Below, in pieces: positions 4,947-17,700 of a stretch of DNA of 36,600 nt (position 1 is its first letter; each line of letters starts with the position of its first letter). The stretch lies in IMG/VR virus record IMGVR_UViG_3300035698_000784, positions 1 through 36,600 of that record; one strand, written 5' to 3'. Both the position numbers and the translations under genes were made by a program. The notes under the pieces were generated by a model. It did not search any database, was not told the DNA's origin, and saw nothing but the letters and a program-made list of their open reading frames with translations. This DNA comes from a virus.

Positions 4947-5831
4947 ATGCATAAGATTGAGCAATACATTCAAGTACCATTAGAAGACTTAGACAATAGA
5001 ACCGCAGAGGAATTTGACGGTCTAATTGAAGAGTTTGGCGAAAGCTGTAAGAGTGCCTTGAGGGATTGCTTACTAAGCAGTCGTAAGGATGAACCCTTTA
5101 GAGTTCGTATGAGCAATATAGGTAAACCCTTACGGCAGCTTATGCTAGAGAAGAAACATGGACGTTCTCCTATGGATGCGGATATGAAACTCCGTATGAC
5201 CTATGGCTATATCTGGGAGTCCTTACTAGTATTTCTAATAAAGGCAGCAGGATTACCAGTAGAAGATGGCAAAGAAGTTTCCCTAGATATAGTCCATGGG
5301 GAGAATAAGACTAAGGTTAATGGCACTTATGATATTGAGATTGACGGTATGATCTATGATATCAAGTCGGCTAGCCCATGGTCCTTTGATAATAAGTTTA
5401 CTACCTTTGAGGGCTTAGAAGATGATGATCCCTTTGGGTATGTAGGTCAGGGCTTTGGTTACAGCATAGCATCCAAGAAACGTTTTGGTGGCTGGGTTGT
5501 AGTTGATAAATCTGATGGGCGTATCAAAGTAGTAGAGGTTCCACAACTAAATTATAAACAGCTAGCCCAGAAGTACTTAAATATTTTCAGGCATAAGCTA
5601 AATGAGATAGGCTCTGACCATGAGCCACCACCATGTGACGGTGTTATTGATGAGAAGTTCAATAGGAAAGTTACTGGTAATAAAATACTTGCAGGAGGTT
5701 GTAAGTTCTGTGACCATAAGTACAAGTGTCACCCAAAACTACAATTCAAAGAGTGTCTTAATAGTAAAGCCCAGACTAAACCGTACAAACTATACACCCA
5801 CATTGAGGAACCTGAAGTAAATGAAGATTAA
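4947..5831 (+). CDS. Cas4/RecB-like PD-(D/E)XK exonuclease with Fe-S cysteines
   Basis: The 294-residue product has Glu91 (GYIWESL), Asp129 in GTYDIEIDG, and Asp138/Lys140 in YDIKSA. These are the catalytic elements of the PD-(D/E)XK nuclease fold. The C-terminus carries CKFCDHKYKC (Cys252, 255, 261), the CxxCx5C pattern that with an N-terminal Cys (34 or 41) ligates an Fe-S cluster in Cas4/AddB-like nucleases. Such phage enzymes process DNA ends for recombination-dependent replication, or degrade host DNA. The gene overlaps nrdA by 11 bases. The catalytic fold is confident; the Fe-S cluster is inferred from the cysteine pattern. Confidence 0.9.
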   Translation: MHKIEQYIQVPLEDLDNRTAEEFDGLIEEFGESCKSALRDCLLSSRKDEPFRVRMSNIGKPLRQLMLEKKHGRSPMDADMKLRMTYGYIWESLLVFLIKAAGLPVEDGKEVSLDIVHGENKTKVNGTYDIEIDGMIYDIKSASPWSFDNKFTTFEGLEDDDPFGYVGQGFGYSIASKKRFGGWVVVDKSDGRIKVVEVPQLNYKQLAQKYLNIFRHKLNEIGSDHEPPPCDGVIDEKFNRKVTGNKILAGGCKFCDHKYKCHPKLQFKECLNSKAQTKPYKLYTHIEEPEVNED

Positions 5832-7668
5832 AAAAGTATATAAACGTGATGATCTGTTGGACCCATATGCTATAAGCATACTGAAGGATCGTTACATGGT
5901 AGACGGTGAGGAGTCCCCTCAAGATGCTTTCGCAAGGGCCGCAGTAGCCTTTGCGGATGATGAGGCACACGCTCAACGTCTTTATGATTACGTGAGTAAA
6001 CTATGGTTTATGTTTGCAACTCCCGTACTTGCCAATGGCGGTACTAAGAGGGGGTTACCCATTAGTTGCTTCTTGAACTATGTAGGAGACTCACGAAATT
6101 CCATTCTTAAACACTACGAAGAGAATGGATGGCTTGCCTCATCAGGTGGAGGGTTAGGTGGTTACTGGGGTTCTCTTAGAACTTCAGGGACTAAAACTTC
6201 AACTGGTGGAGAGTCAACAGGGATGATACCATTTCTTAAAGTGGTTGATGATATAACCCTAGCGTTCCGTCAAGGTGGAACTCGTAGAGCAGCGTATGCT
6301 GCGTATCTTGACATTGACCATCCTGAGATCATAGAGTTCCTCAACATGAGGAAACCTACAGGTGGTGATGTTAACCGCAAGTGTCTAAACTTACATCATG
6401 GTATCAACATCACTGACAAGTTTATGTCCCTCATTGAGGAATGTACGCTTAACCCAGAGGTGGACGATACATGGGAATTAATTGACCCCCACACAAAGGA
6501 TGTAAGCGAGACTGTATCAGCTAAAGACTTATGGCAAAACATATTGGAACTTCGGGTCCAAACTGGAGAACCATATATCCACTTTATTGATACAACAAAT
6601 AGGTTCCTACCCGACTGTCAAAAGGCTCTAGGACTTAAGGTGCACGGAAGTAACCTTTGTAGTGAAATAGTACTCCCTACAAATGACGAGAGAACAGCCG
6701 TGTGCTGCTTATCATCACTCAACCTTGAAAAGTATGATGAATGGAAGGACACCACTATTGTTCAAGACTTAATAAGAATGCTTGACAATGTGCTAGAGGA
6801 GTTTATTAAGATGCCTCATATGCACCCAAGTGGTAAAGATGCGATTCGTAAAGCTGTCAATTCGGCTGTACGTGAAAGGAGTCTGGGCCTAGGTGCTATG
6901 GGCTTTCATGCTTATCTACAGGCTAATCAGATTCCATTTGAGTCTGAGGAAGCTGTTAAGATAAACAAGGAAATGTTCCAAGGTATACGCACCATGGCTG
7001 AAAGGGAATCAAAACGATTAGGTGTCGAGAAGGGGGTAGCTCCAGACTTCGGTGACACTGACCCTGTGAATGCTAAAAGAAATGTTCACCTTATGGCTAT
7101 TGCTCCCAATGCATCATCCAGTATTATCTGCGGTAATACAAGTCCTTCAATAGAACCATTTAATGGTAATGGCTTTGCTCAGAAGACTGAGAATGGTACT
7201 AACATATATAAGAATAAGTTTCTTGATAAGTTACTATCATCTAAAGGAATCTCTAAAGCTAACCAGACAAACATTTGGAAACAGATTACGTCAAACAATG
7301 GTTCCGTGGAAGATGTTGAGTGTCTCACTGAGGCAGAAAAAGAAGTGTTTAAAACTGCATTTGAGATCAGTCCTTTCTGGATAATTCGTCATGCTGCTGA
7401 TAGGCAGGTGTACATTGATCAAGCACAATCAGTTAATCTATTCTTTAGAAACCCAGTAGACCTCAACACTCTCCACAAAGTACACCTACATGCATGGAAA
7501 AGTAATCTTAAGACACTTTACTATTGTCGTAGTATGAAGTCTAGTCGTACTGAGAATATCGGCACACGCTTCAACAGACATGAGATTACTCCTAAGGAGT
7601 TTAAGCAAACCCAATTTAAAACTGTGTTACCAAATGGAATGGAGATTGGTTGTGTCGGATGTGAGTAA
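5821..7668 (+). CDS. nrdA: class I ribonucleoside-diphosphate reductase, alpha subunit
   Basis: Reduces ribonucleotides to deoxyribonucleotides together with NrdB. The 615-residue protein has Cys83 (PISCFLN) and Cys295/296 as candidate redox cysteines, and NLCSE (Asn278, thiyl-radical Cys280, Glu282) as the active-site triad. YY (567-568) serves radical transfer, and the C-terminal CVGCE (Cys611/614) is re-reduced by thioredoxin or glutaredoxin. No N-terminal ATP-cone is present, so the enzyme should lack dATP feedback shut-off, common in phage RNRs. The start overlaps the nuclease gene. Downstream lie an HNH relic and an nrdB interrupted by an amber codon. Confidence 0.97.
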   Translation: MKIKKVYKRDDLLDPYAISILKDRYMVDGEESPQDAFARAAVAFADDEAHAQRLYDYVSKLWFMFATPVLANGGTKRGLPISCFLNYVGDSRNSILKHYEENGWLASSGGGLGGYWGSLRTSGTKTSTGGESTGMIPFLKVVDDITLAFRQGGTRRAAYAAYLDIDHPEIIEFLNMRKPTGGDVNRKCLNLHHGINITDKFMSLIEECTLNPEVDDTWELIDPHTKDVSETVSAKDLWQNILELRVQTGEPYIHFIDTTNRFLPDCQKALGLKVHGSNLCSEIVLPTNDERTAVCCLSSLNLEKYDEWKDTTIVQDLIRMLDNVLEEFIKMPHMHPSGKDAIRKAVNSAVRERSLGLGAMGFHAYLQANQIPFESEEAVKINKEMFQGIRTMAERESKRLGVEKGVAPDFGDTDPVNAKRNVHLMAIAPNASSSIICGNTSPSIEPFNGNGFAQKTENGTNIYKNKFLDKLLSSKGISKANQTNIWKQITSNNGSVEDVECLTEAEKEVFKTAFEISPFWIIRHAADRQVYIDQAQSVNLFFRNPVDLNTLHKVHLHAWKSNLKTLYYCRSMKSSRTENIGTRFNRHEITPKEFKQTQFKTVLPNGMEIGCVGCE

Positions 7669-7765
7669 TCTGAAACGTTTCTGGGACAAAGTAGATATGG
7701 GTATTATTGATGTATGCTGGGAGTGGCTTGCGGGTAAACATACAAGAATGGCGTATACAAAATAA
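7661..7765 (+). pseudogene. remnant of an HNH homing endonuclease (N-terminal fragment)
   Basis: From a GTG at 7661, overlapping the end of nrdA in another frame, 34 codons encode KRFWDKVD, then CWEWLAG, then a stop. FW-x-KVD followed by CWEW is the characteristic N-terminus of small phage HNH endonucleases, which normally continue for 100-150 more residues to the HNH catalytic motif; none of that follows before nrdB at 7790. The fragment therefore looks like the stump of a deleted free-standing homing endonuclease, a frequent guest of phage RNR genes. The similarity is short, so a chance match cannot be excluded. Confidence 0.6.
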
Positions 7766-7789
7766 TAAAGTTAAATTAGAGAGTTATAA

Positions 7790-8761
7790 ATGAGCTTAAT
7801 TACAAAAAGAAGTAACTACAAGCCTTTTGAATACCCTTGGGCGTACGAAGGGTACAAGAAACAAGCTAAGATGCATTGGATTCCTGAAGAAGTCCCACTA
7901 CATAATGATGTACGGGATTGGCACTAGAAGCTTGATGACTCTGAGCGTAACCTACTGACACAAATCTTTAGGTTCTTCACTCAGGCAGACGTTGATGTAG
8001 CTAAAGGTTACCTTGAGCATTATATCCCAGCCTTCGGGGGCAACCCTGAGGTAGCTATGATGCTGTCAACCTTTGCTTCAATGGAAGCCGTACACATTGA
8101 TGCCTATAGTCTGCTATTAGATACTATTGGTATGCCTGAGACAGAGTACAGTGCCTTCTCCCAGTACAAAGAAATGGCTGATAAACATGAATTTCTTGAA
8201 AGTGTGTCTTCAAACACCCCCAGGGAAATGGCGAAAGCCTTAGCTATCTTCTCAGCATTTGGTGAAGGACTTCAGTTGTTTAGCTCATTTGCTATTCTAT
8301 TGAACTTCCCAAGGATGGGCAAGATGAAAGGTATGGGACAAATTGTGACCTGGAGTATTCTAGACGAGACTGTACACTGCCAATACATGCTACAGCTATT
8401 CAGGGAGTTCCTGTCAGAGAACTATGAAGTATGGGACGATGATCTTAGAGGTGAGATTTATGAAGCCTGTAGGACCATGGTTGACCTTGAAGATCAGTTC
8501 ATTGACTTGGCGTTTGCCCAAGGAGACGTTGAGGGGCTGTCTAAGGATGATGTCAAGTTATACATCCGGTACATTGCTGACCGTAGGCTACTTCAATTAG
8601 GTCTCAAGACTAACTTCAATGTCAAGAAGAACCCTTTACCATGGCTTGAAGAAATGCTCAATAGTACTGAACATGCTAACTTCTTTGAGACTAGAGTAAC
8701 GGAATACGAAAAGAACCCAACAGTAGGAGCAATACAATGGGGAGAGAAACTACATGGCTAA
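7790..8761 (+). CDS. nrdB: class I ribonucleotide reductase beta subunit, interrupted by in-frame TAG
   Basis: From ATG 7790 the frame reads as an NrdB/R2 protein of 323 residues, but codon 46 (7925-7927) is TAG. Before it: MSLITKRSNYKPF to VRDWH; after it: KLDDSERNLLTQIFRFFTQ. The di-iron ligands are Asp67, Glu99, His102, Glu159, Glu193 and His196, and the radical tyrosine is Tyr106 (HIDAY). The next ATG, at 8057 (Met90), would give a 234-residue protein without Asp67, which should be inactive. The function of the locus is certain; whether it is a dead gene, read-through, suppression or a sequence error is open. TAG is a normal stop elsewhere in the window. Confidence 0.92.
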
Positions 8762-10752: not shown

Positions 10753-11019
10753 ATGCTTAGTAAAACACAGAATATGACTTTTGGTAGGGCCATTGAACAG
10801 CTTAGACTAAATAAGAAAGTTGCCCGTCGGGGGTGGAATGGTAAAGGTATCTTTATTGAACTACAAGTACCAGACGCCAACAGTAAAATGTCTCAACCAT
10901 ATATCTACATTGATACTACGGGTCTTCAGACGGATAACCCGGATGCCCCTAAGTCTCTTGTCCCCTGGTTAGCCTCCCAGACGGACATGTTAGCTGAAGA
11001 CTGGGGGGTTGTAGATTGA
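10753..11019 (+). CDS. DUF2829 protein, Tad2-like anti-Thoeris candidate
   Basis: The 88-residue protein has the whole DUF2829 signature in order: MTFGRAIEQL (8-17), KKVARRGWNGKG (21-32), a QPYIYI strand (48-53), and PWLASQTDMLAEDW (71-84). SPO1 Tad2 belongs to this family; it forms oligomers that sequester the cyclic ADP-ribose-type signal made by Thoeris TIR enzymes, and some relatives also bind cyclic dinucleotides. The gene follows AAGGAGG, is full length for the family, and its TGA overlaps the TTG start of the next gene (TTGA). Family membership is confident; the anti-defence role is inferred from homologues. Confidence 0.88.
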   Translation: MLSKTQNMTFGRAIEQLRLNKKVARRGWNGKGIFIELQVPDANSKMSQPYIYIDTTGLQTDNPDAPKSLVPWLASQTDMLAEDWGVVD

Positions 11020-11330
11020 GCATTGACACAGGCTTCACAAGATACGATACAGGTAAATTAAGATGGTCTCTAATACCTAGGCGTACCCTAAGGGATATTG
11101 TCAAGGTGTTAGAGTTTGGTGCTAAGAAGTACCAACGTGACAATTGGAAAAAGATGGATACTAGTAGTGACTTAGAACGCTGCTGGGATTCATTTGACAG
11201 ACATAGGGATGCCTTCCAGTTAGATGGTGAGACATTTGACAAGGAGACTGGGCTACCCCATACATCCCACATGTTATGCAACATCTTATTTATACACCAC
11301 TTAACCCAATACAAAGATGAGGGAAAATGA
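11016..11330 (+). CDS. dATP/dGTP diphosphohydrolase-like protein (DUF5664-type)
   Basis: The start is a TTG overlapping the previous stop; no usable ATG follows until residue 46, and a run of G lies just upstream. The 104-residue protein shows RYDTGKLRWSLIP, then EFGAKKYQRDNW, a central RH (DSFDRHRDAF), then ETGLPHTSHMLCNILF. This pattern is typical of the phage family named after dATP/dGTP diphosphohydrolase N-terminal domains. The likely role is trimming nucleotide triphosphates to monophosphates to tune the dNTP pool. It overlaps the MazG-like gene by ATGA, so the two are probably co-translated. Catalysis has not been shown for this small form. Confidence 0.75.
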   Translation: MSIDTGFTRYDTGKLRWSLIPRRTLRDIVKVLEFGAKKYQRDNWKKMDTSSDLERCWDSFDRHRDAFQLDGETFDKETGLPHTSHMLCNILFIHHLTQYKDEGK

Positions 11331-11905
11331 CCGAAGCACCACATTTGACTATAGTAAAGCCAGCGCCTATGATTGAGGTGTCGGACCTTACTGAGGTTAT
11401 GAGTGCACAAGAAGATTTCTTTAAGTCTTTTAAAATCGACATAACTAAGGCTACCCAAGAGCTATACATTACGCTCATTGAAGAAGAGCACGAAGAATGG
11501 GTAGAAGAATTTTATGGAGACCCGTCACATGATTTCAACCAACTTAAAGAACTAGTAGACTTACTATATGTAGCTGCCGGGCTATGTGTACAACGTGGGT
11601 ATAAAGTAAAGACCACTAAGGCCTTTATGATCAACGAGTATTATGATCATTCCATTACGGACCTAGTATCCGAAGTAGCCACAGGGGACACCTCTGAGAC
11701 TACCTTAAGGATGCTGATGTATGCTATTTATGGCTATGCAGATTCTAAGGGGTGGGACATTGAGGAAGCTTATAGACGAGTACACCACTCTAATATGAGT
11801 AAGCTTACTGATGATGGAAGTGTCATATACCGAGATGATGGCAAGATACTTAAGAGTGATAACTACAAAGAACCCTATTTGGAGGATTTAACTAATGGAA
11901 AATAA
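11327..11905 (+). CDS. MazG-like / PRA-PH-like NTP pyrophosphohydrolase
   Basis: The 192-residue all-alpha protein has EEEHEEWVEE (51-60) and KELVDLLYVAAG (74-85). These form the EExxE...ExxD magnesium-binding signature of MazG and phosphoribosyl-ATP pyrophosphohydrolase-like enzymes. After this domain a second helical part (about 105-150) repeats a similar bundle without the acidic motif, and the C-terminus is polar. It likely hydrolyses (d)NTPs to monophosphates and pyrophosphate. It sits between the DUF5664-type gene and thyX in the nucleotide cassette. Confidence 0.85.
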   Translation: MTEAPHLTIVKPAPMIEVSDLTEVMSAQEDFFKSFKIDITKATQELYITLIEEEHEEWVEEFYGDPSHDFNQLKELVDLLYVAAGLCVQRGYKVKTTKAFMINEYYDHSITDLVSEVATGDTSETTLRMLMYAIYGYADSKGWDIEEAYRRVHHSNMSKLTDDGSVIYRDDGKILKSDNYKEPYLEDLTNGK

Positions 11906-13521: not shown

Positions 13522-13761
13522 CTACATTTTAACTAAATTAGCCCTACATGCTCTAATGGTTTTACGAGTTAGTTCGTAATCTTTAACTGCTTGTATTACT
13601 TTTGTGTGCTCCTCAGAATCCCTAAGGTCTTGTAATTCCTTAGCTAATTCCAATTGGTATTCATCAGAATAATCAAAAAGTAAGCCACAATCGACATTAG
13701 AAGTCACCGTCCCGCAAGCTGTCAATAGTATCATCAATGGTAGTAGGATTAAGTAATTCAT
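13522..13761 (-). CDS. o-spanin (Rz1-like outer-membrane lipoprotein)
   Basis: The 79-residue protein starts with a signal sequence and lipobox, LLTACG (lipidated Cys16). A helical, charged periplasmic part follows, with Cys25 and Cys71. The gene starts inside the i-spanin gene in the +1 frame, a 65-base overlap, the arrangement of Rz/Rz1 pairs. GAGGT precedes the ATG. O-spanins join i-spanins across the periplasm to fuse inner and outer membranes in the last step of lysis, so the host has an outer membrane. At 79 codons it is normal in size, though without the usual proline-rich segment. Confidence 0.82.
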   Translation of the reverse strand: MNYLILLPLMILLTACGTVTSNVDCGLLFDYSDEYQLELAKELQDLRDSEEHTKVIQAVKDYELTRKTIRACRANLVKM

Positions 13762-13909
13762 CTATTACCTCTTGTTTGTACTCATTTTGGGCTTCGAGTA
13801 CCTCTTTTTGTTGCTTTAGGGACTTGTTCTGACTTGATAAATACTTCAGGTAGAGGAGCAGACCTGTTAAGCCTATTCCACTACCTAGAAGTAAATATAT
13901 CGTACTCAC
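13697..13909 (-). CDS. i-spanin (Rz-like)
   Basis: The GTG start at 13909 overlaps the holin stop (TAGTG). The 70-residue protein has one N-terminal membrane segment (about 4-23) followed by a strongly predicted coiled coil (LSSQNKSLKQQKEVLEAQNE, 24-43, continuing to about 52) and an acidic tail. This is the i-spanin layout: inner-membrane anchor plus periplasmic coiled coil. Rz proteins are often longer, so this is a compact version. Holin, endolysin and o-spanin genes adjoin it. Confidence 0.82.
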   Translation of the reverse strand: MSTIYLLLGSGIGLTGLLLYLKYLSSQNKSLKQQKEVLEAQNEYKQEVIDELLNPTTIDDTIDSLRDGDF

Positions 13910-14088: not shown

Positions 14089-14775
14089 TTAAACCTCCGT
14101 TACTATACTAGGGGCCTCTTTTACTTGAGACAACCGAGATTTCCAGCCTTTGCCGAATTTCCCCCAGTCACTAAGACCCTTGTATAAAGATAAACGCCTT
14201 TTCAATATAGCTTCCCGTGTATCCCCAGCGTCGTAGGAATTGAGAGCATTCAAGGTGTTATTGCCTAACTTGCCATCTACTTTAATAGTGGAGCCTAGGT
14301 CATTTAACGCCCGTTGAATTACTTTAGTCATACCATGTATACCATGATTGACATTACCATCAAACACTAAATCCTGGATTAGCAAAGGGGCCTTGTGGAC
14401 ACCCGCATCATTCCAGTACTTCTGTTTGTATATTCTAATAGCTTCAGCTTCTTTAAGTTCCTTGAGGATACCTTTAGTAGCTTGTGGGTAGAACCCCTGT
14501 AGCGTGAACAGTGTGATACCATACTTAGTAGGTGTCCTACGGCCATTCTCAACGTGTTCAGTGTACTTAGAGCCGCCCTCCAGCCTTAAAGTTCGTGCTA
14601 TGACTATCTCTTGGAGCTTAGAGACTGCTATATTCCTGATGTTAGGGAGGTACTCCTCAAGCAAGCTAGGGGCATACATTTCCTCCTGTACCTGTTCAGT
14701 AACTACAGGTATCTCTGGGGGTATATCCATGAAAAACATTTTAAGCCTATTTAGTAGTTTTCTTAGGTATTCCAT
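14089..14775 (-). CDS. endolysin, GH108-type muramidase with C-terminal peptidoglycan-binding domain
   Basis: The catalytic domain carries LRLEGGSKY (EGG with the likely catalytic Glu), then TKYGIT, AIRIYKQKYWNDAG and DLVFDGNVNHG, typical of the glycosyl hydrolase 108 family. The C-terminal half, with VIQRALNDLG and DGKLGNNTLNAL, matches the small peptidoglycan-binding domain that accompanies it. There is no signal sequence, so it would need the holin to reach the wall. The start is uncertain: ATG 14775 has AGGAG 12 bases upstream, a GTG at 14802 would add nine residues, and all options overlap the upstream gene. Confidence 0.92.
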   Translation of the reverse strand: MEYLRKLLNRLKMFFMDIPPEIPVVTEQVQEEMYAPSLLEEYLPNIRNIAVSKLQEIVIARTLRLEGGSKYTEHVENGRRTPTKYGITLFTLQGFYPQATKGILKELKEAEAIRIYKQKYWNDAGVHKAPLLIQDLVFDGNVNHGIHGMTKVIQRALNDLGSTIKVDGKLGNNTLNALNSYDAGDTREAILKRRLSLYKGLSDWGKFGKGWKSRLSQVKEAPSIVTEV

Positions 14776-17700
14776 CTTTTTCTCTAGCTCCTGTAAATTC
14801 ACCTATTTGTCTTGCAATACCTCTAAGTAACTTGGTCTGTGGCGCGACATCGTATTGGTCTGTCCATATGTCCCCTAAGACATCCTGTTCAAGCTCAAGC
14901 TCATTGAGGGCTTCTTCTTGTATCAATTGGATCTCAAGACGTACTTCATCAATACGTTTACGTAACTCTGGGTCACCTAGTAATTCTTTTTCAGGTGTTG
15001 TCTCAGTTGAAGTGCGTCTATTAGGGGAATTAAGTCTACTCAATTCATCATAATAGTTCTTGATACGCTTTGTAGCAGGTTCAATGATTGTGTCACTTAT
15101 ACGTATAAGGTCACCATGTTTATCTGCATACTCATTAGCTTCCTTGTAGGACGAATCTGAGCCAGTCTTTTCGGCATTAGTTTGTTTCTGTTGAAGTGTC
15201 TGAGTAAATTCTTTTAGGGATGTAGCTATGTTATCAAAGTTGTTTCTAGCCCCACTCTTAGGTACATCTGATTTAAACCCAGGTAAGTCACCAACAAAGG
15301 GTGTCTTTGCTTTATCTATTTGAGGACGTTCCTCACCAGTTATCCGAGCTACTATCATATCTGACATAGCTAAAGCGGCTTCACCCACGTAAGGTAATAA
15401 ATCCTTGAACACGTACTCCGCAATAACAGGGTCTATACCTGTAGCCCTAGCAAATTCTATGGCAGCCTTAGAGGTAACTCCAGGTCTTCCTCTATCTTCC
15501 GCAGCTATCTCACTGTTTAGAAGATATTCAGACTGGATATTACTACCAAACTTACTAGTGTTAGAAGCCGCAGCAACACCAGTATCTATACCTGTAGGCA
15601 GTAGACTTGCGGGTCTTGTTTGACCTACCACGGAATTAGTGGCCATAGATAACAACTGAGGGCCTGTCATACCGCTTTCACGTAAGGCCTTCTGTAATGC
15701 AGGGTTAGCCTTAACAGCTTCTTGGGTGTGCTCATCGGCAAGCGTTAATAATTTTGTGGCGCTAGCTGTGAGGGCCTCATCAATAACTTGTCCACCTACT
15801 TTATTCAGGGGGGCAAACATCTGGAAGGGGCTAGGGACAGGCACATAATCTGACTGCTTAGCCGTAGCAGGGTCTCCATAATATACAATAGTCATACTAT
15901 AGCGTTGCCATGCAGGGAGCTTATCCACAAAGGGTATACCATTCTCATCCACATACTGCTTATTGTGCTGATATATACCTGCTTGAGCTAATGACCCTAA
16001 CGCTACTACTTTAGCAATCTGTTTAGGTCTATACCGTACAGCAGCAAAATCTTTACCCATACCATTCATCATGGACTTCATAAAAGCAGTAGAGGCTTGA
16101 TATTGCCTAAAGCCAGCACTATTACCTGCCTCAGTATATTTAACGGCCAGGGACTTAGCAGCACTTAGAGCACCTTGCTCAGCCTCATCGACAGTCTTAC
16201 CCATCTTGAGGAACTGTTCTTTAACATCCTCATAGTATCTTGCACGAGTTGATAAATCACTTATTTCAGCAAAGTCTTCAAGGGTCTTTACAATTGGCTT
16301 AGCAGATTTACCATTAACCCAACTTGCAGCCTTTTTAATATCCCCAACTTCATCATAGAGGTATTTACTTTTAGCTATCTTAGCACTTAAGTCTTCCCCA
16401 CGCTTCATCATGGTGCCTTTTTCAAGTAGGCCTGGGGATATATTTTGTATCTTAGCTCTATACTCAGGGTCACTGAATAGCTTCTTAGTCACCTTTAATT
16501 GCTTGTCAAGTCTGAATAAGTTTTTATTACCTACAAGTTTAGCATCAGCAGTATAAGCGTAGCCTAAGCCCTCTTTGACCCACGACTTAGCCGAGAAGAC
16601 AAAGTTGAGGGTTGTAGCTAATTCACGGCGTACTTGAGCAGCTTTCATAAAGCCATCACCTAGTTTGCCGCCTTTAGTTGCAGCGTTTAGGTATGGTCTT
16701 GTGATTGTCTTCATCATCTCAGGGTCCGTCACCGTAAGCTTAAGTCGTGTTCCATCTATAAAGACTGATACATTACCAATTTCTCCGCCTTCCCTTAGTT
16801 CACCTGCAAGAGGTGTGATGTCTTTGGACTCAATCATTTTAGGGGACTTGTCAGACTTAGCTCTTTTAATGGCAGCTAGTACATCTGATTTACTTTCCCT
16901 AAAGATGGCATTAAAGCCTGCTTCATCGGTGTGTTCTAATAAATAATCTAATACTGCTACACGATCTCTATTTACCTGAGCAACCCTAACAACACCTTCC
17001 ATGTCCTTTAGGGTGTTCTCTACTGGGTCACCAGTGAAATCTCTGTCACTCCCTGTACGAGCTTTAAGGGCTGTATTAGGTTGCGATGTACCACCACTAA
17101 AGTCTTTATCTAGGTCATAAGTTTCTAACTCACGTTTAGATGATAAGTAATACGGACGACCAGTCTTAAGGTTTTTAGCTTCTGCCTTAGATATTAAGTT
17201 GGCACTCACCCGCACATCAATAAGATGTTGAGATAACTTACTCATGTTCTCTAGGTACTTAGCTTTATCTGGGTCAGCCTTAGCAGCATCAAAGATAGCT
17301 TGAGCCTCTTCTTTAGACATAGCTACGCGCTCACCCCCACGGTTTACGTAGGCTTGGTAAGTTGGTTTGCCTGCTTGTAAGTCGTCAAGCTTACCTTGAG
17401 CCGTATTAAATTCACCAGCAGTCTCGGCAGCGTCAGCCTTAGTGGTTAACTTAGCTTGATTAGTGGCATTTAAGGCATAATCATCAAGGGCGTTGGCAGC
17501 TAATGATATTTCATTGGTATCTTCAATAGATATACCAGCTTCCCTAGCTTCTCTTTGGATGCGTACGTAAGGTTTAACCTGTGTATCAGCCACTAGGCGA
17601 CCTTTAGCTGGGTCCCATTTCTTAATATACGTAGCGGCACCATCTTCGGCACCAATAATACCTACACTCTCATTCTTTAGGTTTACCCCACGCTCATTCT

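Follow-up and report, generated by a model that had tools for sequence, protein, structure and literature searches.

The small subunit (R2, NrdB) of a class I RNR needs a set of carboxylate and histidine residues and, usually, a radical tyrosine. Almost all phages with a class Ia RNR carry the genes for both subunits, and a precedent for a degenerating nrdA has been described in Campylobacter phages (PMC3653736). Among the HMO-2011-type podoviruses, RNR genes are frequent in some subgroups and have not been found in others (PMC9038755). In phage T4, the gap between nrdA and nrdB contains mobE, encoding an HNH enzyme that targets nrdB (PMC2988022). The literature found on amber codons joined with nrdB was restricted to a T4 genome review.

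The stretch of DNA analysed here (the window, 36,600 nucleotides in length) comes from a virus of aquatic bacteria. As judged from the sequences of its terminase and DNA polymerase, this phage belongs with the HMO-2011-type podoviruses, the order of its genes being closest to that group as well. Indeed, the best isolate matches for terminase and DNA polymerase were HTVC033P, the CRP roseophages, and HMO-2011, and gene order across most of the window matches that of G001, the nearest genome found (51 kb). The DNA polymerase of HMO-2011-type phages bears a partial DnaJ domain with two CXXCXGXG motifs. In the window, this polymerase, a family A enzyme, contains CRSCRGTG, and the second motif, as read from the translation, is CHKCGKTG.

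The window encodes both subunits of a class I RNR (Table 1). The nrdB frame comprises 323 codons and ends with TAA (8759-8761). An uninterrupted reading frame, as expected of a class I R2, is absent, the sole earlier stop being a TAG as codon 46, with AAG as the next codon. The preliminary description had reported NrdB-like sequence on both sides of this stop and this was borne out, as the frame is open on either side and PF00268 (Ribonuc_red_sm) matches 7808-8635 in one frame over its full length (profile positions 1-281 of 281; E 1.5e-78), with one TAG inside. Its statement that the iron ligands and the radical tyrosine are intact held too, since none of D67, E99, H102, Y106, E159, E193, and H196 is missing or varies when the frame is aligned with 11 and with 13 relatives. 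Read through the stop, the frame displays the ferritin-like fold, the ligand set, and the radical tyrosine of an R2 protein. A structure model in which the stop was read as a residue had a mean pLDDT of 86.6, and the closest solved structure, by sequence as well as by fold, was the R2 of Francisella hispaniensis (9dws; E 2.7e-94, Foldseek TM 0.84). In this model, residue 46 closes helix 38-46 and shortly precedes the long helix 50-82 that bears D67. An intron or intein at codon 46 was rejected, as the alignment showed no insertion there and no inserted sequence was found. Between nrdA and nrdB, the stretch 7658-7765 encodes VSNLKRFWDKVDMGIIDVCWEWLAG and then stops, resembling the start of an HNH endonuclease. 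The TAG in nrdB, being one base change, needs no cause in this relic.

Table 1. Coordinates of the RNR locus and of the genes of the window that end in TAG.
Feature	Position	Strand	Basis
nrdA, intact, 615-aa large subunit	5821..7668	+	Pfam Ribonuc_red_lgN and lgC; no internal stop
Relic of HNH endonuclease N-terminus, between nrdA and nrdB	7658..7765	+	PHROG 3593 (E 0.008); phage HNH endonucleases (E 0.002-0.004)
AGAGAG, plausible ribosome-binding site of nrdB	7778..7783	+	Sequence; inference
nrdB frame (class I RNR small subunit), interrupted at codon 46	7790..8761	+	Pfam match, alignments
In-frame TAG, codon 46 of nrdB	7925..7927	+	Sequence, Pfam match across stop
Restart frame from ATG, 234 aa, the sole one, without ligand D67	8057..8761	+	Sequence, model
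TAG-ended SSB-like gene	4582		
TAG-ended 84-aa gene	4940		
TAG-ended 73-aa gene	8975		
TAG-ended RusA-like gene	9471		
TAG-ended 79-aa lipoprotein-like gene	13522		
TAG-ended 1398-aa gene	14747		
TAG-ended 418-aa gene	30359		
TAG-ended large terminase gene	34219		

In the full-length relatives, alignment column 46 was occupied by Lys in 56 cases (34 AAG and 22 AAA), Asn in eight, Gln in four (three CAG and one CAA), Glu in two, and Leu, Arg, Thr, and Ser in one case each. A stop was absent from all IMG/VR relatives covering this column (more than 70), and two further class I NrdB proteins encoded by bacterial MAG contigs were also open at codon 46. Residues at position 46 vary, and this record alone has the stop. 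The proposal that one base change from CAG, AAG, or GAG would explain the TAG agrees with the Lys, Gln (CAG), and Glu residues of this column. Because CAG (Gln) occupies position 46 in L002 and L003, the two nearest homologues (67%), a C-to-T transition would be the simplest single-step origin of the TAG, Lys being the predominant residue overall. Besides the TAG, nrdB contained no frameshift or other decay. Out of 123 columns conserved in the other sequences, it departs at four, all conservatively (K to R, Y to F, E to Q, and K to R), compared with two to 17 departures in ten intact relatives, which is less than in most of them. This indicates that nrdB was under selection until very recently, or still is.

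The locus is very probably an unexceptional phage gene for a class I RNR small subunit, with one isolated nonsense codon due to either a recent mutation or a sequence error. Taken separately, a genuine mutation that arose recently in the sampled virus has slightly better than an even chance, and a one-base sequencing or assembly error is a serious but lesser possibility; these probabilities, and those given below, are judgements and not computed values. A single substitution at the tolerant, variable position 46 would make the TAG. If it is real, translation would give a fragment of 45 residues without ligands, and perhaps also a fragment starting at Met90 (ATG at 8057), the first in-frame ATG past the TAG, with GAGGT upstream (8048-8052). 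According to the model, the latter product would lose D67 and the whole of helix 50-82, in line with the earlier expectation that a restart at Met90 would not give a working enzyme. As neither fragment should make a working R2, NrdA would be left without a partner, and the phage would then presumably rely on the dNTP supply of its host. Both the recency of the mutation and the loss of NrdB activity are what we infer from these observations.

Such an isolated nonsense codon is not remarkable. Since approximately 4.2% of random coding substitutions make a stop (4.2% of the single substitutions in the 11,519 codons of the window), one nonsense error or mutation fits ordinary error or mutation loads. 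Similarly, among the distinct NrdA and NrdB frames fetched for this analysis, an internal stop was found in one of 113 NrdA frames and none of 104 NrdB frames; at such a rate of approximately 0.5% per gene, one nonsense codon among 45 genes is unremarkable. A comparable nonsense codon occurs in the nrdA gene of the IMG/VR contig L109, namely an in-frame TAA (2183-2185) where the siblings L097 and L148 (97% identity) read GAA. Searches with NrdA, terminase, and phosphoesterase yielded no close sibling of the window phage, and a 32-base string, matched exactly except for an unspecified first codon base, had no hits in IMG/VR that would point to a contig of the same species. Compared with the nearest relative, the reading frames disagree at only one other place, 14747-14802, where the 1398-aa virion gene and a lysozyme gene (14089-14802) share sequence in different frames; G001 has one frame of 1271 aa. 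Either a natural overlap of the two genes or an indel would explain this region and, given the former, the contig does not clearly look rich in errors.

Recoding of TAG as a sense codon throughout the genome, known from some crAss-like phages, would account for one in-frame TAG in a gene as conserved as nrdB. However, the 45 genes of the window end in TAA (32), TAG (eight), or TGA (five), and an in-frame stop was found in no other gene. Moreover, TAG as a sense codon would fuse the 84-aa gene with the exonuclease gene, the RusA-like gene with the phosphoesterase gene, and the terminase gene with the next gene. Recoding, which the preliminary description had deemed unlikely, is thus virtually excluded, stop usage ruling it out for this record. 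The in-frame spacing of genes was also tried as a hint of read-through or recoding; all three short positive gaps after TAG were in frame, but so were four out of eight after TAA. Because short in-frame gaps follow TAA-ended genes too, the spacing after TAG-ended genes is ascribed to chance. The gene previously called a holin, if it is the one at 13522-13761, looks more like a putative outer spanin lipoprotein. Two overlapping small genes in this region (13522-13909, minus strand), one with a lipoprotein-like signal, resemble a spanin pair.

Alternatively, the TAG may be read at a useful rate, giving a low amount of working NrdB, through a host amber suppressor, a suppressor tRNA encoded by phage sequence missing from the record, or leaky termination. 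As relatives accept K, Q, N, E, R, L, T, and S at position 46, almost any residue inserted there would be tolerated. In addition, the rest of nrdB is clearly constrained, and the base 3' of the UAG is A, which is held to be favourable for amber suppression in E. coli. However, eight other genes terminate with TAG, and neither the window nor any of three related records, searched over their full length, contained a tRNA, which makes this explanation an unlikely one. The preliminary description had proposed a search for a tRNA with a CUA anticodon, and none was present in the 36.6-kb record, which is probably partial; the tRNAs of 21 other loci were limited to one Arg and one Gln (CTG) tRNA, none with a CUA anticodon. 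Because the record is linear and probably partial (36.6 kb versus 53-55 kb for isolates of the group), a suppressor tRNA could be located in the missing part. As to programmed read-through, none of the relatives has a stop at column 46, and RNA folding 3' of the TAG (7928-8047) revealed nothing unusual (z 0.04), nor did the window contain any Rfam match. Hence, among the four options proposed earlier (a fresh nonsense mutation, a host amber suppressor, programmed read-through, and an assembly error), a fresh mutation or a sequence error is favoured, whereas programmed read-through is unsupported, as no relative shares the stop and a 3' structure is absent. Functional read-through of the TAG in nrdB is unsupported. 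It is quite improbable that a real and fixed amber codon is suppressed in the natural host, in which case R2 synthesis, and hence dNTP supply, would be set by the level of amber read-through in that host.

The isolated nonsense codon, whether a mutation or an error, was also weighed against the possibility that the phage has given up its own NrdB for good, its intact NrdA pairing with the R2 of the host. The intact nrdA of the window and the gain, swap, and loss of RNR genes in this phage group would be consistent with such a pairing. Indeed, at the position of nrdAB, G001 (contig IMGVR_UViG_3300033067_000202) carries a class II nrdJ of 984 residues with an apparent intein (L176; 10224-13178, minus strand), RNR class and intein having been recognised by reading the sequence and not by a domain search. 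Hence, the two phages display a swap of RNR class at one locus, nrdAB in the window versus an apparent intein-bearing class II gene in its closest relative. In contigs found via the neighbouring phosphoesterase gene, the upstream RNR-like genes match the nrdJ of G001 or, weakly, an NrdA. HMO-2011 possesses a class II RNR, and HTVC033P has no RNR annotated in its first 19.5 kb, comprising the replication region. As the RNR slot thus varies in the group (nrdAB, class II nrdJ, or none annotated), loss of nrdB, as by a recent mutation, may be survivable, and such a phage might plausibly do without any RNR of its own. Against a permanent pairing with the host R2, nrdB is located beside nrdA in 130 of 141 sampled NrdA loci, and the nrdB of the window displays no decay beyond the stop. 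Since the remaining 11 loci have merely 2-2207 bases downstream of nrdA, no clear phage with nrdA only was seen among the 141 loci. The dependence on a host R2 that had been suggested before is therefore unsupported and very improbable. Further downstream in the window, a gene with a dATP/dGTP diphosphohydrolase N-terminal domain (PF18909) is directly followed by a MazG-like (PRA-PH) gene (11016-11905).

Should the stop prove both genuine and recent, this genome would have caught RNR loss in progress, in a group of phages that gain, exchange, and lose the genes of this slot. A stop that was fixed and suppressed would instead suggest that amber suppression occurs naturally in a bacterial host from an aquatic habitat, an unexpected finding. 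The main lesson is that lone nonsense codons in metagenome contigs want read support before interpretation. Isolated nonsense codons are found elsewhere in RNR genes of IMG/VR too, as in the nrdA of L109, and the present case is most likely an ordinary one. In both, a phage RNR gene on a metagenome contig is whole apart from a single nonsense codon, although L109 has intact siblings at 97% identity, whereas none so close was found for the window. In Campylobacter phage Cpt10, one RNR subunit gene is disrupted and its partner is intact as well, but there inserted genes and an intein break up nrdA (PMC3653736), whereas a single codon interrupts the nrdB of the window. Similarly, the window and T4 with its mobE gene share HNH endonuclease sequence in the nrdA-nrdB gap, although the window retains merely approximately 30 residues of the N-terminus. 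With the HMO-2011-type podoviruses (PMC9038755), the phage shares a family A DNA polymerase with a CXXCXGXG motif, collinear genes, and the closest terminase and DNA polymerase, but it carries class I nrdAB, in contrast with the class II RNR of HMO-2011 and the replication region of HTVC033P, where none is annotated. Finally, the NrdB proteins of pelagiphages such as HTVC309P and of the IMG/VR contigs L001 and L002 are similar to that of the window in length, in nrdA-nrdB order, and in the seven residues (61-67% identity), the in-frame stop being the feature that sets the gene of the window apart from them.
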